Position numbers and translations under genes: made by a program. Positions 23,410 through 27,063 of a stretch of 64,000 bases of DNA are shown one piece after another (the stretch's first letter is position 1; each line of letters opens with the position of its first letter). This stretch comes from Nitrosopumilus sp. GTDB taxonomy: Archaea; Thermoproteota; Nitrososphaeria; Nitrososphaerales; Nitrosopumilaceae. The notes below the pieces were generated by a model that did not search any database, had not been told where the DNA came from, and saw nothing but the letters and a program-made list of their open reading frames with translations. Location: positions 662,204-726,203 of the forward strand of contig NZ_JAILWC010000001.1 of NCBI RefSeq assembly GCF_025699125.1, given 5' to 3'.

Positions 23410-23985
23410 CTATTTCAATAAATTTTTGGGTAGGATAGATCCCAAATAACTTGTAATTGCTGGAAAAAGGATTTCAGAATCACGATCATTTCTTGTTATT
23501 TCAAACACATTGTGAATTAACTGTTGAATTGTCAGATGTTCATCACGGTACAGGGTTTTCTTAGGATTTTTAGCAGCATCCAAAATTGTAAACCCATTGT
23601 CAGTCTCCAATAAATTTCTCAATAGTGAATTCACTATGTTTATTTTCTCATCAATGTCCTTGTGTGGAAAATCAGTATTCAATCTCTTGATTTGTAACTT
23701 TAAATCATGAAAAGAATTTGTCGTATTTCTTTCAACTAGATGTTGAGATTTGGACGCGTAATTATTTGAAGGCAAGTAAAATTTCATATTTGCTTTTGTT
23801 TGAACTGTGATGATCTCTTTTTCAATTAACATATCTCGTGTCTTTTCAAATGTGGTTTTGGCCATAAATTCAGGAACAATCAATTTAATCAAGGCATTGT
23901 GATGTAAATCAGGATTGTCTCGGATTATCTGAAAAACTATCCTTTCACGCTCATATGATTCTAGGTTAGGCTCATTATGACTCAT
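23410..23985 (-). CDS. Winged-helix-like transcriptional regulator
   Basis: 191 aa. The first 70 residues look like a winged helix: RERIVFQIIRDNPDLHHNAL, then KLIVPEFMAKTTFEKTRDML and EKEIITVQTKANMKFYLPS (wing). The C-terminal part is helical (LKLQIKRLNTDFPHKDIDEK) and may mediate dimerisation. A perfect 12-bp palindrome lies 7 nt upstream of the start codon, consistent with autoregulation. Family assignment is from fold pattern only. Confidence 0.65.
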   Translation of the reverse strand: MSHNEPNLESYERERIVFQIIRDNPDLHHNALIKLIVPEFMAKTTFEKTRDMLIEKEIITVQTKANMKFYLPSNNYASKSQHLVERNTTNSFHDLKLQIKRLNTDFPHKDIDEKINIVNSLLRNLLETDNGFTILDAAKNPKKTLYRDEHLTIQQLIHNVFEITRNDRDSEILFPAITSYLGSILPKNLLK

Positions 23986-23991
23986 TTTATC

Positions 23992-24003
23992 TAGGTCGAC
24001 CTA
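23992..24003. promoter_or_regulatory. Palindromic operator candidate TAGGTCGACCTA
   Basis: Perfect 12-bp inverted repeat placed 7 nt before the ATG (23985) of the winged-helix gene at 23410. A related half-site CTAGGTTAGG occurs inside the coding start at 23961-23970 and TATTAGGAAGG just beyond. Position over the expected transcription start suits a repressor site. Binding protein inferred to be the adjacent regulator. Confidence 0.45.
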
Positions 24004-24118
24004 TATTAGGAAGGTTGTCTATAAATCAATGTCGGTAAAAATTCAGAGAAATCGCCATAGACATCAAATAGAAATTTTGAAATTCAGATTTGCATGCACA
24101 TTACAAACAAAATGACGG

Positions 24119-24142
24119 ATAAATGGAAAAATGTCCATTTAT
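24119..24142. other. Hairpin with 9-bp arms
   Basis: ATAAATGGA (24119-24127), 6-nt loop, TCCATTTAT (24134-24142), followed by TTTTTC on the plus strand. Two more AAATGGA elements occur at 24166-24180 in a tandem TGGAGATAAA repeat. It lies in the non-coding stretch between the regulator at 23410 and the remnant at 24276. Could be a terminator; no upstream plus-strand gene is seen, so its role is unclear. Confidence 0.35.
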
Positions 24143-24275
24143 TTTTCAAAAGCCAGGCACAAATTAAATGGAGATAAATGGAGATAAAAAAAATTTGAAA
24201 AAATACCTACAAACTGCAATAAATACAGCTATTCCTGAAATGTAAGGATCTTTTCCATCAAAAATACCATCACTG

Positions 24276-24410
24276 CTACCGACATCTAAAATTTCTGTAT
24301 CTTTGTCCGCCATTTTTTAGAATTATTTTGGAATCTTTGAGTGAAATTGATACTCCGTAACCTCGAAGAAGTTTAACGTTGTAATGATTTTTCTTGCCTT
24401 TGAGAGTCAA
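24276..24410 (-). pseudogene. Possible remnant of a Cas1-like N-terminal domain
   Basis: A 44-codon minus frame opens at a TTG overlapping the stop of the SnoaL-like gene (TTGA). It translates to LTLKGKKNHYNVKLLRGYGV followed by SISLKDSKIILKNGG, then degenerate residues and a stop. The HYNVKLLRGYGVSISLKDSK string resembles the N-terminal beta-sandwich of archaeal Cas1, including solo and casposon Cas1. Nothing downstream continues a Cas1 frame; another frame gives an unrelated 49-codon ORF (24164-24313). The position just beyond aEF-2 matters because thaumarchaeal casposons have been reported at the 3' end of that gene. Similarity is by eye and short. Confidence 0.4.
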
Positions 24411-24790
24411 GCCAATGATTCTTGAATCTTTTGTGTGTCTGTAAATTGCCTGAACTTGAAAATTTTGTTGTCCCTGATCTCATAGATGTGGGAAAATGGA
24501 ACATCAAATTCTTTTTCTTCCTTTGAGATTCCCGTATATCTTCCAATTACTATTACGTGGTTTTTTGAATCCAAATATTCTTCAGGAACTGCATGAAATT
24601 CCTTGAAATTTGATAACATGTTAGCAAAATAATCATTAAAGATTGCATCCAAGCCAACATATCTTCCACCGTGAGGCATTCCTTTCAGAGTGATCCATTC
24701 TAGTTTCTCATCACACAATTGCTGAATGGTTTTCATGTCTTTGTTTTTGAAAGCAAGATAGAATTTTTCTATTAGTTCTACATTGGACAT
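24407..24790 (-). CDS. SnoaL-like/NTF2-fold protein
   Basis: 127 aa with the ketosteroid isomerase-like cone fold pattern: VELIEKFYLAFKNKDMKTIQ, CDEKLEWITLKGMPHGGRYV, then GLDAIFNDYFANMLSNFKEF, SKNHVIVIGRYTGISK and FDVPFSHIYEIRDNKIFKFR. Members include isomerases, cyclases and ligand binders; active residues cannot be assigned here. It lies 80 nt downstream of aEF-2 on the same strand. Confidence 0.85.
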   Translation of the reverse strand: MSNVELIEKFYLAFKNKDMKTIQQLCDEKLEWITLKGMPHGGRYVGLDAIFNDYFANMLSNFKEFHAVPEEYLDSKNHVIVIGRYTGISKEEKEFDVPFSHIYEIRDNKIFKFRQFTDTQKIQESLA

Positions 24791-24870
24791 GAAATTTTGT
24801 AGGATCTTTGTTTCTTAAGATTTACGACAACGCAGCATCTTTTTGTTCCCAGAACGGGGAGATACCATTT

Positions 24871-27063
24871 TTACTCTTTATCGATAAACTCGTTAACACC
24901 TGGTGGATCTGGTGCCAATCCCTTTCTCTTCCTAATGTCAGCAACAGCTGGTCCTAACATTGATTTTGGGACTTCGGTCCATTCCTTAAATGAGGTATTC
25001 CAAGTTGCACGTCCAGCTGTTTGGCCCCTCATCTCTTCAGATAAAGTAAATGTTTCAGAAGCTGGAATCTCACCTGTAATAATGCTTGAAGCACCTTTTT
25101 GAGACATGTCCAATACTTTGCCTCTCTTTCCAGAAAGAACAGTTGCCACATTTCCAACCAAATCAGTAGGAACACGAACTTCAATAGCTAGAGTAGGTTC
25201 TAGAACTGCAGTTCCAGCAGTAAGTAAAGCGCCCATACATGCTCTTCGGGAAGCAGGACCCAATTGAGAAAGTCCTCTATGTGCGGTATCCTCATGAGGT
25301 ACAAAGTGAGTGAAGATAAACTTGCAATTCCTCATCTGTTCTTTACAGAGAGGTCCTTCTTTCATCACTTCTTCGAATCCGGAATTAATAGAATCAGTTG
25401 ATTCTTGTACAAATTGCACACCTTTAGTTCCGTTAATCAAAACATTTCCACGTGAATCAAATTTCATCACTCTCTTGATTGTGTCAGTATCCCATCCGGC
25501 CTTCTTTAGAAGTTCTGCCACCATCTTTTTATCTTTCATATCGCTGATTTCTCCTGTTCTTAACATGTGAGCAATTTCAGGTTCTAGCGGCTCTACTTTC
25601 ATGAAAATCTTATTGTGTCTGTTTGGAGATTTTGCCATGATTGGTTCGCAACTTCCCTTTACTGTTTCTCTATAGTTAATCAAAGGTTCAGATGTGACAA
25701 TTTCACATTTTGCGTCTTGAATTCTGTGTGTTGCGACATCAAGATGTAAAACTCCCATTCCCGCAACAATTGTCTCACCACTTTCTTCATCGATTTTCAC
25801 AATTAGGTTTGGATCCTCAATTGTTAGTTGTTTGAGAATTTCAACTAATTTAGGCAAATCTTTAGGATGTTTTGGTTCTATTGCAATTTGAACAACAGGC
25901 TCTGAAACATAGTGAACGCCTTCAAACATTGGAATGTCTTTAATGGAAGATAGCGTGTTTCCGGCTCTAGCTTCAGTTAGGCCAAGTAATGCAGGGATGT
26001 TTCCAGCACCAAGCTCGCCTACTTGTTCTCTTTGGTTTCCCATAAAGAAGTTAACAGATTGTACACGTCCCTCTCTTTTTGAATCTATAATGTTGATTGT
26101 TTGTCCATCTTTAATTTTACCAGAAAATAACCTCCCTATTGCTACAGGTCCCGCAGCAGGATCTAAAACCATATTCACAATCATCATAATTGTAGGACCA
26201 TCATCACTACATGCAAGTAATGCTTTTCCAACGTCGGATTCCAAATCACCTTTCCAAATTTGCGGAATCCTGTATTTTACTGCCTCATGTGGGGCAGGAT
26301 GATGTTTTACAACCATTCCAAGAACTGCATCAGCTAGAGGGGCTTTTTCTACGAGTTCATCTACTTTTTCGTTCTGATATGCATCAATTACATCTTTAAA
26401 TGAAATTCCTTTTTCTTTCATCAAATCAAGATTGATTGCCCACCTATCCTTTGCAGAGCCAAAAGTCACACTGGCGTCCTGGATTGATACTTTCCATTTT
26501 TCCTTGTATTCAGGTTCAGCATATGTGTCAATTAATTGATTAAAGTTTGATACAACATCTGCCAATTGCTGTTGCATCTTTTCTGGCGTTAATCTTAGTT
26601 CTTTGATGAGTCTATCAACTTTATTGATAAACAAAACGGGTTTTACACGCTCTTCTAGTGCCATTCTAGTTACAGTTTCAGTTTGAGTCATAATACCTTC
26701 TACAGCATCACAGACCACAACTGCACCGTCAATTGCTCTAAGACTTCGAATCACCCTTCCACTAAAGTCGACGTGGCCAGGTGTATCAATCATGTTTATG
26801 ACATATTCTTTATTGTTTTTTGTAAAGTGTAAAGTAACATTTGCCTGATAAATTGTAATTCCTCTTGCTTGTTCTTCTTTGTCAAAGTCCATTGCCAAAG
26901 CTTTTCCAGCAGCAGATGGAGCGATAATTCCAGAGTTTGCCAAAAGACTGTCACTCATGGTAGTCTTTCCATGGTCAACATGAGCGATAACACCAAAGTT
27001 TCGGATTTGATCCTTGTTCTTAATGATTTTAAGAACTTCTCCTGTTGACTTGAATTTTACCAT
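24871..27063 (-). CDS. fusA: Translation elongation factor aEF-2
   Basis: GTPase that drives ribosomal translocation. G1 AHVDHGKTT at residues 27-35, switch/G2 RGITIYQANVTLHF, G3 DTPGHVDF and G4 NKVD are all present. Domain IV carries the diphthamide loop HEDTAHRGLSQLGPASRR (His of AHRG is the expected modified residue). 730 aa, normal for archaea, ending NEFIDKE. Its 3' end is of interest as a reported integration target for thaumarchaeal casposons. Confidence 0.98.
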   Translation of the reverse strand: MVKFKSTGEVLKIIKNKDQIRNFGVIAHVDHGKTTMSDSLLANSGIIAPSAAGKALAMDFDKEEQARGITIYQANVTLHFTKNNKEYVINMIDTPGHVDFSGRVIRSLRAIDGAVVVCDAVEGIMTQTETVTRMALEERVKPVLFINKVDRLIKELRLTPEKMQQQLADVVSNFNQLIDTYAEPEYKEKWKVSIQDASVTFGSAKDRWAINLDLMKEKGISFKDVIDAYQNEKVDELVEKAPLADAVLGMVVKHHPAPHEAVKYRIPQIWKGDLESDVGKALLACSDDGPTIMMIVNMVLDPAAGPVAIGRLFSGKIKDGQTINIIDSKREGRVQSVNFFMGNQREQVGELGAGNIPALLGLTEARAGNTLSSIKDIPMFEGVHYVSEPVVQIAIEPKHPKDLPKLVEILKQLTIEDPNLIVKIDEESGETIVAGMGVLHLDVATHRIQDAKCEIVTSEPLINYRETVKGSCEPIMAKSPNRHNKIFMKVEPLEPEIAHMLRTGEISDMKDKKMVAELLKKAGWDTDTIKRVMKFDSRGNVLINGTKGVQFVQESTDSINSGFEEVMKEGPLCKEQMRNCKFIFTHFVPHEDTAHRGLSQLGPASRRACMGALLTAGTAVLEPTLAIEVRVPTDLVGNVATVLSGKRGKVLDMSQKGASSIITGEIPASETFTLSEEMRGQTAGRATWNTSFKEWTEVPKSMLGPAVADIRKRKGLAPDPPGVNEFIDKE

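Follow-up and report, generated by a model that had tools for sequence, protein, structure and literature searches.

The question raised by this locus is whether a short frame resembling the N-terminus of Cas1, lying next to the aEF-2 gene, is what remains of a casposon. aEF-2 is an essential gene, here of a marine ammonia-oxidising archaeon, and casposons have been proposed as the origin of the enzymes of CRISPR adaptation. In the window (the whole stretch of 64,000 nucleotides analysed, from a Nitrosopumilus genome of 1.85 Mb in 6 contigs), the frame reads as 44 codons from a TTG start at 24276-24410 of the minus strand, overlaps the stop of the upstream gene and lies 461 nt from the aEF-2 end at 24871, much as the original prediction had it (about 460 nt). 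We conclude, with a probability of about 0.92, that the locus is a one-ended, decayed family 1 casposon that integrated at the aEF-2 stop and was later cut by a deletion. Family 1 casposons are known in Nitrosopumilus and its relatives (NitAR1-C1, NitAR2-C1, NitNF5-C1/C2); as far as the available text of PMC4046053 and PMC6563490 goes, they combine Cas1, PolB and TIRs, insert at the 3' end of ef-2 with the gene unchanged, and are also known in tandem. The copy in the window differs in being one-ended, without polB and without a working cas1.

The predicted resemblance to Cas1 holds for residues 1-34 of the frame. This cas1 5' stub (24309..24410, minus strand) shares with the intact 333-aa Cas1 of the same genome (G000:C4:187538; one genome searched) a core identical at 27/27 residues, NHYNVKLLRGYGVSISLKDSKIILKNG (E 2.8e-13), and 91% identity over the 34 codons. 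Downstream of codon 34 the frame extends to 24276 through unrelated sequence, which places the breakpoint of cas1 at about 24309. The intact protein matches PF01867 (148.7 bits, cut-off 22.3), so that the suggested Cas1 profile is reached through identity to the full protein and not by the stub itself, which is too short and gave 0 Pfam families at E<=1. On this identity, 24309-24410 encodes a real Cas1 N-terminus of 34 codons. Among these, 14 are identical to those of the intact gene, 17 carry silent and 3 replacement differences; counted by sites, this small sample gives 19 silent changes over ~24 silent sites and 3 others over ~78 sites. Because the DNA differs mostly at silent codons, the stub is not a recent copy of the intact cas1 but comes from a sister element, and the same small sample suggests that both cas1 lines were under protein-level selection until one was cut.

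The surroundings of the stub have the layout of a casposon end. The aEF-2 gene (730 aa; 24871..27063, minus strand) was taken from its ORF and aligned with 78 loci of the genus; its 3' end is the casposon target, here a 15-bp leader (24887-24901) followed by the 15-bp TSD unit TATCGATAAAGAGTA (24872-24886), together 24872..24901 of the minus strand. The same 15-mer stands on both flanks of a complete element at aEF-2 of another genome (G002). Directly adjoining the aEF-2 stop on the minus strand is a left TIR with its subterminal region, AAAATGGTATCTCCCC...GTTGTCGTAA... (24804..24871, minus strand, the lower bound approximate), which aligns with casposon ends: 82.8% over 87 bp (E 1.5e-18) with the G013 end L068, 86% over 80 bp with the end L069, and 84.6% over 52 bp with the TIR of an element in G013. 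An intact cargo gene follows (24407..24790, minus strand), coding for a SnoaL-like protein of 127 aa (PF12680, 52.8 bits, cut-off 27); this type of gene occurs away from visible casposons too, such as a 63% paralogue at G000:C1:219760 of this genome. Behind the stub, 100 bp of post-breakpoint sequence (24209..24308, minus strand) match none of the loci compared, and the right flank (23901..24208, minus strand) is 89.3% identical over 308 bp to locus L125 of the nearest relative, G110, where the counterpart stands behind that genome's own aEF-2 casposon remnant. A 112-bp segment within this region (24097-24208) recurs at 86% next to this genome's other casposon scar (L135, 8210-8320) and at 83% in G110.

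The rest of the element was not found. No right TIR occurs within 3 mismatches across the window, which leaves one TIR of two; the 15-bp target occurs once without mismatch, other matches being at chance level, which leaves no duplication; no tblastn match to polB lies within 9 kb downstream of the target; and 34 of about 333 cas1 codons remain. The original prediction had seen neither a TIR nor a duplication. A search for a duplicated aEF-2 3' end confirmed the latter, with no second copy in the window, and the former is corrected by the left TIR behind the aEF-2 stop, the right one being the only one absent.

Complete relatives are present in the same genome. The intact Cas1 is housed in an element of 11,383 bp (G000:C4:186667-198049) whose TIRs are alike at 16/17 bases and whose 15-bp TSD, TATCGACAAACAGTA, is found on both sides (15/15). 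Its genes are a 273-aa cargo gene, cas1, an AAA ATPase, a 632-aa DNA polymerase, a TIR-domain protein and an AlbA_2 protein, and it thus has the Cas1, PolB, TIRs and TSD of family 1. The polymerase matches phrog_11768 (E 2.1e-60), which PHROG describes just as "DNA polymerase"; there was no Pfam match and no polymerase among the PDB sequences, and its placement with the protein-primed PolBs relies on the association between family 1 and such enzymes that the available text of PMC6563490 gives. By its gene content, this is a family-1 casposon with a virus-type DNA polymerase, and it shares with the window the gene order TIR, cargo, cas1. Because a second TIR follows right behind its right TSD (L368, 12066 onward), it would be the first of a stack; the 7 kb searched behind that TIR (L368) contained no further TSD copy that would mark the right end of the second element. 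Contig C3 has an element of 2,060 bp next to the stop codon of a 451-aa gene; the TIRs of this element agree at 17/17 bases and its TSD at 14/15, and it carries cas1 codons 1-61 but no polB. A second type of casposon-like locus, L082 7943-9822 and 4194-6926 (G000:C4:105000-123000), has a 403-aa Cas1 (PF01867, 199 bits) and, where PolB would stand, a neighbouring protein of 910 aa; the 910-aa protein has no Pfam match, and by size the locus looks like a family 2 casposon. The other scar of this genome, L135 (G000:C1:391068-401118, site 9042, minus strand), has a target copy, a TIR and a PolB piece, lies within an insert at the 3' end of a gene, presumably a 3-hydroxyacyl-CoA dehydrogenase, and is common by descent with G110 (L126).

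The sequence of events at aEF-2 may be read as follows. An ancestor of this genome would have received a family-1 casposon at the stop codon of aEF-2, with Cas1 presumably joining the TIRs to the 15-bp target ending in TA. The TSDs at aEF-2, at a leuB-like gene (which we take to be an isopropylmalate dehydrogenase) and at the 451-aa gene of contig C3 all end in TA, and because of this the first TIR base completes a TAA stop, an arrangement seen for complete elements at all three genes; in the window, too, the first A of the TIR would complete TAA and leave aEF-2 whole. A deletion, probably a single event, would then have taken everything from cas1 codon 35 to the right end, so that the TIR, a single cargo gene and the stub of cas1 were left. 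The SnoaL-like gene may be expressed or retained for use. As predicted for the residue of a lost casposon, the same stop codon is occupied by casposons, whole or partial, in related genomes. Counting against this reading are a stub that is short and has no Pfam match, the missing right TIR, second target copy and polB, the unexplained 100 bp past the breakpoint and the occurrence of SnoaL-like genes apart from visible casposons.

Other origins have to be weighed against it. The element may have been small from the start, consisting of a TIR, cargo, a cas1 stub and a right TIR, moved by Cas1 from another casposon, with only the right end lost since. Natural elements of such a plan exist (812, 2060 [in this genome], 2835 and 2780 bp), and, of the cas1 fragments of the genus, 35 begin with the 5' end while 9 are internal or 3'. 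However, the window has neither a right TIR nor a TSD, and the piece from stub to right flank measures just about 100 bp, so we regard this origin as rather unlikely. Since Cas1 is common to casposons, solo cas1 genes and CRISPR-Cas systems, the stub might also derive from a solo cas1, as the original prediction allowed, or from a CRISPR-Cas adaptation module. Yet a casposon TIR precedes it, and it equals the Cas1 that a TIR/TSD-bounded element of this genome encodes together with a DNA polymerase; because the order TIR, cargo, cas1 matches that of complete casposons, with the breakpoint on the other side of the stub, the solo option loses weight and such an origin is very improbable. A chance resemblance or an unrelated small gene, to which the mere 34 codons of the stub lend what little room there is, has practically no probability: the 27/27 identity refutes it, and the frame does not behave as a conserved small gene, the fragments of relatives ending at many different residues.

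A survey of 95 genomes of the genus gave aEF-2 DNA matches in 83/95, a few of them by distant target copies only. In the suggested comparison of the region downstream of aEF-2, a fixed regular expression recognised a TIR at the stop in 22 of the 78 loci read, a denominator that keeps two loci read beyond the normal gene end (L261, L266) and one at a contig end (L329). About five further loci have a TIR that looks worn by eye, outside the 22, and many without a TIR by the expression have AT-rich sequence at the stop. We considered that insertion overwrites the aEF-2 end (GAC for GAT), which fitted the first loci, but GAC is widespread without a TIR among the 78 and the idea was dropped. With the intact Cas1 as query, 16 nearly full-length relatives were found at >=50% identity, together with fragments of which 35 begin within the first ten residues and 9 are internal or 3' by hand count, omitting a distant Cas1 family (25-40% identity), continuations of counted fragments and one full-length copy broken in two. 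Fragments of PolB likewise occur at target-near ends. The cas1 stubs of relatives gather at ends of 121-154 codons, with frequent breaks at codons 133-154 (L069, L070, L072, L073, L303, L304, L308); we do not take them for a conserved Cas1 N-domain gene, the DNA after the break being mostly unrelated and some of them being frameshifted longer copies. At L307 (G096:C49:62000-69000, frame from 3313), a 262-aa ORF fuses Cas1 residues 1 to about 124 with a piece of PolB, apparently through an internal deletion.

A finder for paired TIRs flanked by equal 15-mers, run on the fetched loci, yielded 14 TIR/TSD-bounded elements, to which a looser earlier search added 1 for a total of 15; as controls, 81 TIR pairs at six shifted offsets and 18 pairs in reversed sequence each gave 0. 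Full cas1 and polB are present in 5 elements (one polB broken), cas1 alone in 1 and neither intact in 9 (812, 915, 2060, 2221, 2769, 2780, 2835, 3240 and 5105 bp), a proportion of 9/15 that describes a selected set and not a genome-wide rate, the loci having been chosen for cas1 pieces, targets or the aEF-2 end. The 812-bp element has a broken cas1 (1-131), the 2835-bp element cas1 1-145, and the 2780-bp element cas1 1-76 adjoining polB 395-607. Several mini elements stand in tandem with a TSD in common; in G079, the 2780-bp and 915-bp elements lie between three copies of TACAGATAATCTCTA. Among the proteins that casposons and mini-casposons carry as cargo are TIR-domain, AlbA_2 and KAP-NTPase proteins (L146 1336-2385, L368 8179-10444, L079 4253-4906), which by domain are of types common in defence. 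The titles and abstracts searched, among which few subscription papers were covered, held no description of natural non-autonomous, miniature or defective casposons or of Nitrosopumilus remnants. A word search of PMC9939771, PMC9966878 and PMC6563490 gave nothing on natural non-autonomous or defective casposons, and the terms "MITE", "non-autonomous", "defective" and "truncated" are absent from PMC6563490. We rate natural mini-casposons without intact cas1 and polB as new relative to the available text of PMC4046053 and PMC6563490.

How casposon ends come to lie behind others is seen most clearly at aEF-2 of G041. Outward from the gene there are a TSD (1108148), a casposon of 13.1 kb, a TSD (1095032), a second casposon of about 19.4 kb with cas1 and a 592-aa PolB-like frame, a TSD (1075645), a worn TIR and a SnoaL homologue. 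This homologue, with 63% amino acid identity to that of the window, stands directly behind the two casposons and is followed by a small gene and a CPDase-like gene, a relative of which (57% aa) serves as cargo in the scar at aEF-2 of G013. The plainest reading of this one clear case is that new elements enter beside aEF-2 while older ones are pushed outward and wear down to their cargo genes. Stacks with an older SnoaL scar behind two newer casposons are rated new relative to the parts of the cited casposon papers available to us.

Many casposon ends far from aEF-2 have a near copy of the aEF-2 end just before them. Among 33 candidate sites that a script placed neither at aEF-2 nor at tandem junctions, 24 match AAGTGTTAACGAGTT at >=11/15 positions immediately before the TSD; one of these, L133, is aEF-2 cut by a contig end, leaving 23 distant copies. 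The other sites are one-base shifts, weaker copies or false matches, including one false match in this window. The copies cover aEF-2 positions -15 to +15, with a conservation of 0.6-1.5 bits at -15 to -1 and 0.0-0.6 bits at -45 to -16. Later sites came from a query starting near -13, which could favour copies with the leader; with a 600-bp aEF-2 query, most distant matches also lose homology near -13. The extent of -15 to +15 equals the minimal target measured for another casposase, that of A. boonei, whose shortest working target reaches -15 on the leader side according to the available text of PMC6614799, in which a family 1 casposase is shown to use the aEF-2 target. One comparison with an empty site speaks against the 30-bp target being precisely where the moved DNA begins on the left: an intergenic insert of G013 (1.32 kb, flanked by the 6-bp repeat AAACGA, with uninterrupted sequence in the nine relatives compared) starts 61 bp before the copy. 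At G000:C1:400068 and G110:C1:722180, where the copy is common by descent, about 90 bp separate the end of the host gene from the copy. Repeats of the 15 bases preceding each copy gave 4 weak, unconvincing matches among the 33 sites, and no tRNA genes were found at seven loci (L218 and six that have distant target copies). Transport of the target to distant sites is plausible, against which stand the extra 61 and about 90 bp. We rate the 23 distant ends preceded by copies of the aEF-2 3' end as new relative to the available parts of the cited casposon papers.

An experimental parallel exists in Methanosarcina mazei, where, as far as the available text of PMC10359463 goes, an engineered TIR-bounded cargo without cas1 moved with the chromosomal Cas1, landed in the TSD and thereby formed a tandem, and a casposon at a new site had one of its own target copies in place of the local one. 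That was a designed construct and a methanogen casposon, whereas the elements here are natural, of family 1 and known from genomes, and the piece carried along takes in the 15-bp leader as well. In the available text of PMC4046053 and PMC6563490, mini elements, decayed ends with kept cargo and a transported ef-2 end are not described. The window locus itself is the decayed end of an already known type of family 1 casposon; what we rate as new is the set around it, namely the mini-casposons, the stacks with worn, cargo-bearing ends and the apparently transported targets.

A CRISPR array grows by insertion behind a leader, with a short repeat duplicated at each insertion and the newest unit on the leader side. 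Casposon stacks share the leader, the duplicated short repeat and the newest-near-leader order, but each unit is a transposon with genes, 0.8 to 19 kb long, and not a spacer, and no guide RNA function is suggested. A genus with stacking, enzyme loss and apparent target transport offers natural material on how a transposon target becomes a leader and repeat, and for asking whether the Cas1 of one element moves others; it also points to a way in which genes carried as cargo, the SnoaL-like one among them, end up behind aEF-2. Tentatively, and with more doubt than confidence, we propose that family 1 casposons carry their whole target (15-bp leader and 15-bp repeat, copied from the aEF-2 end) to new places and so seed leader-repeat stations, where the Cas1 of any full casposon would stack gene-bearing units separated by identical 15-bp repeats, the newest on the leader side and many without cas1 or polB. 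If true, these stations would be a living form between a transposon and a CRISPR array, and a route by which the host collects cargo genes.
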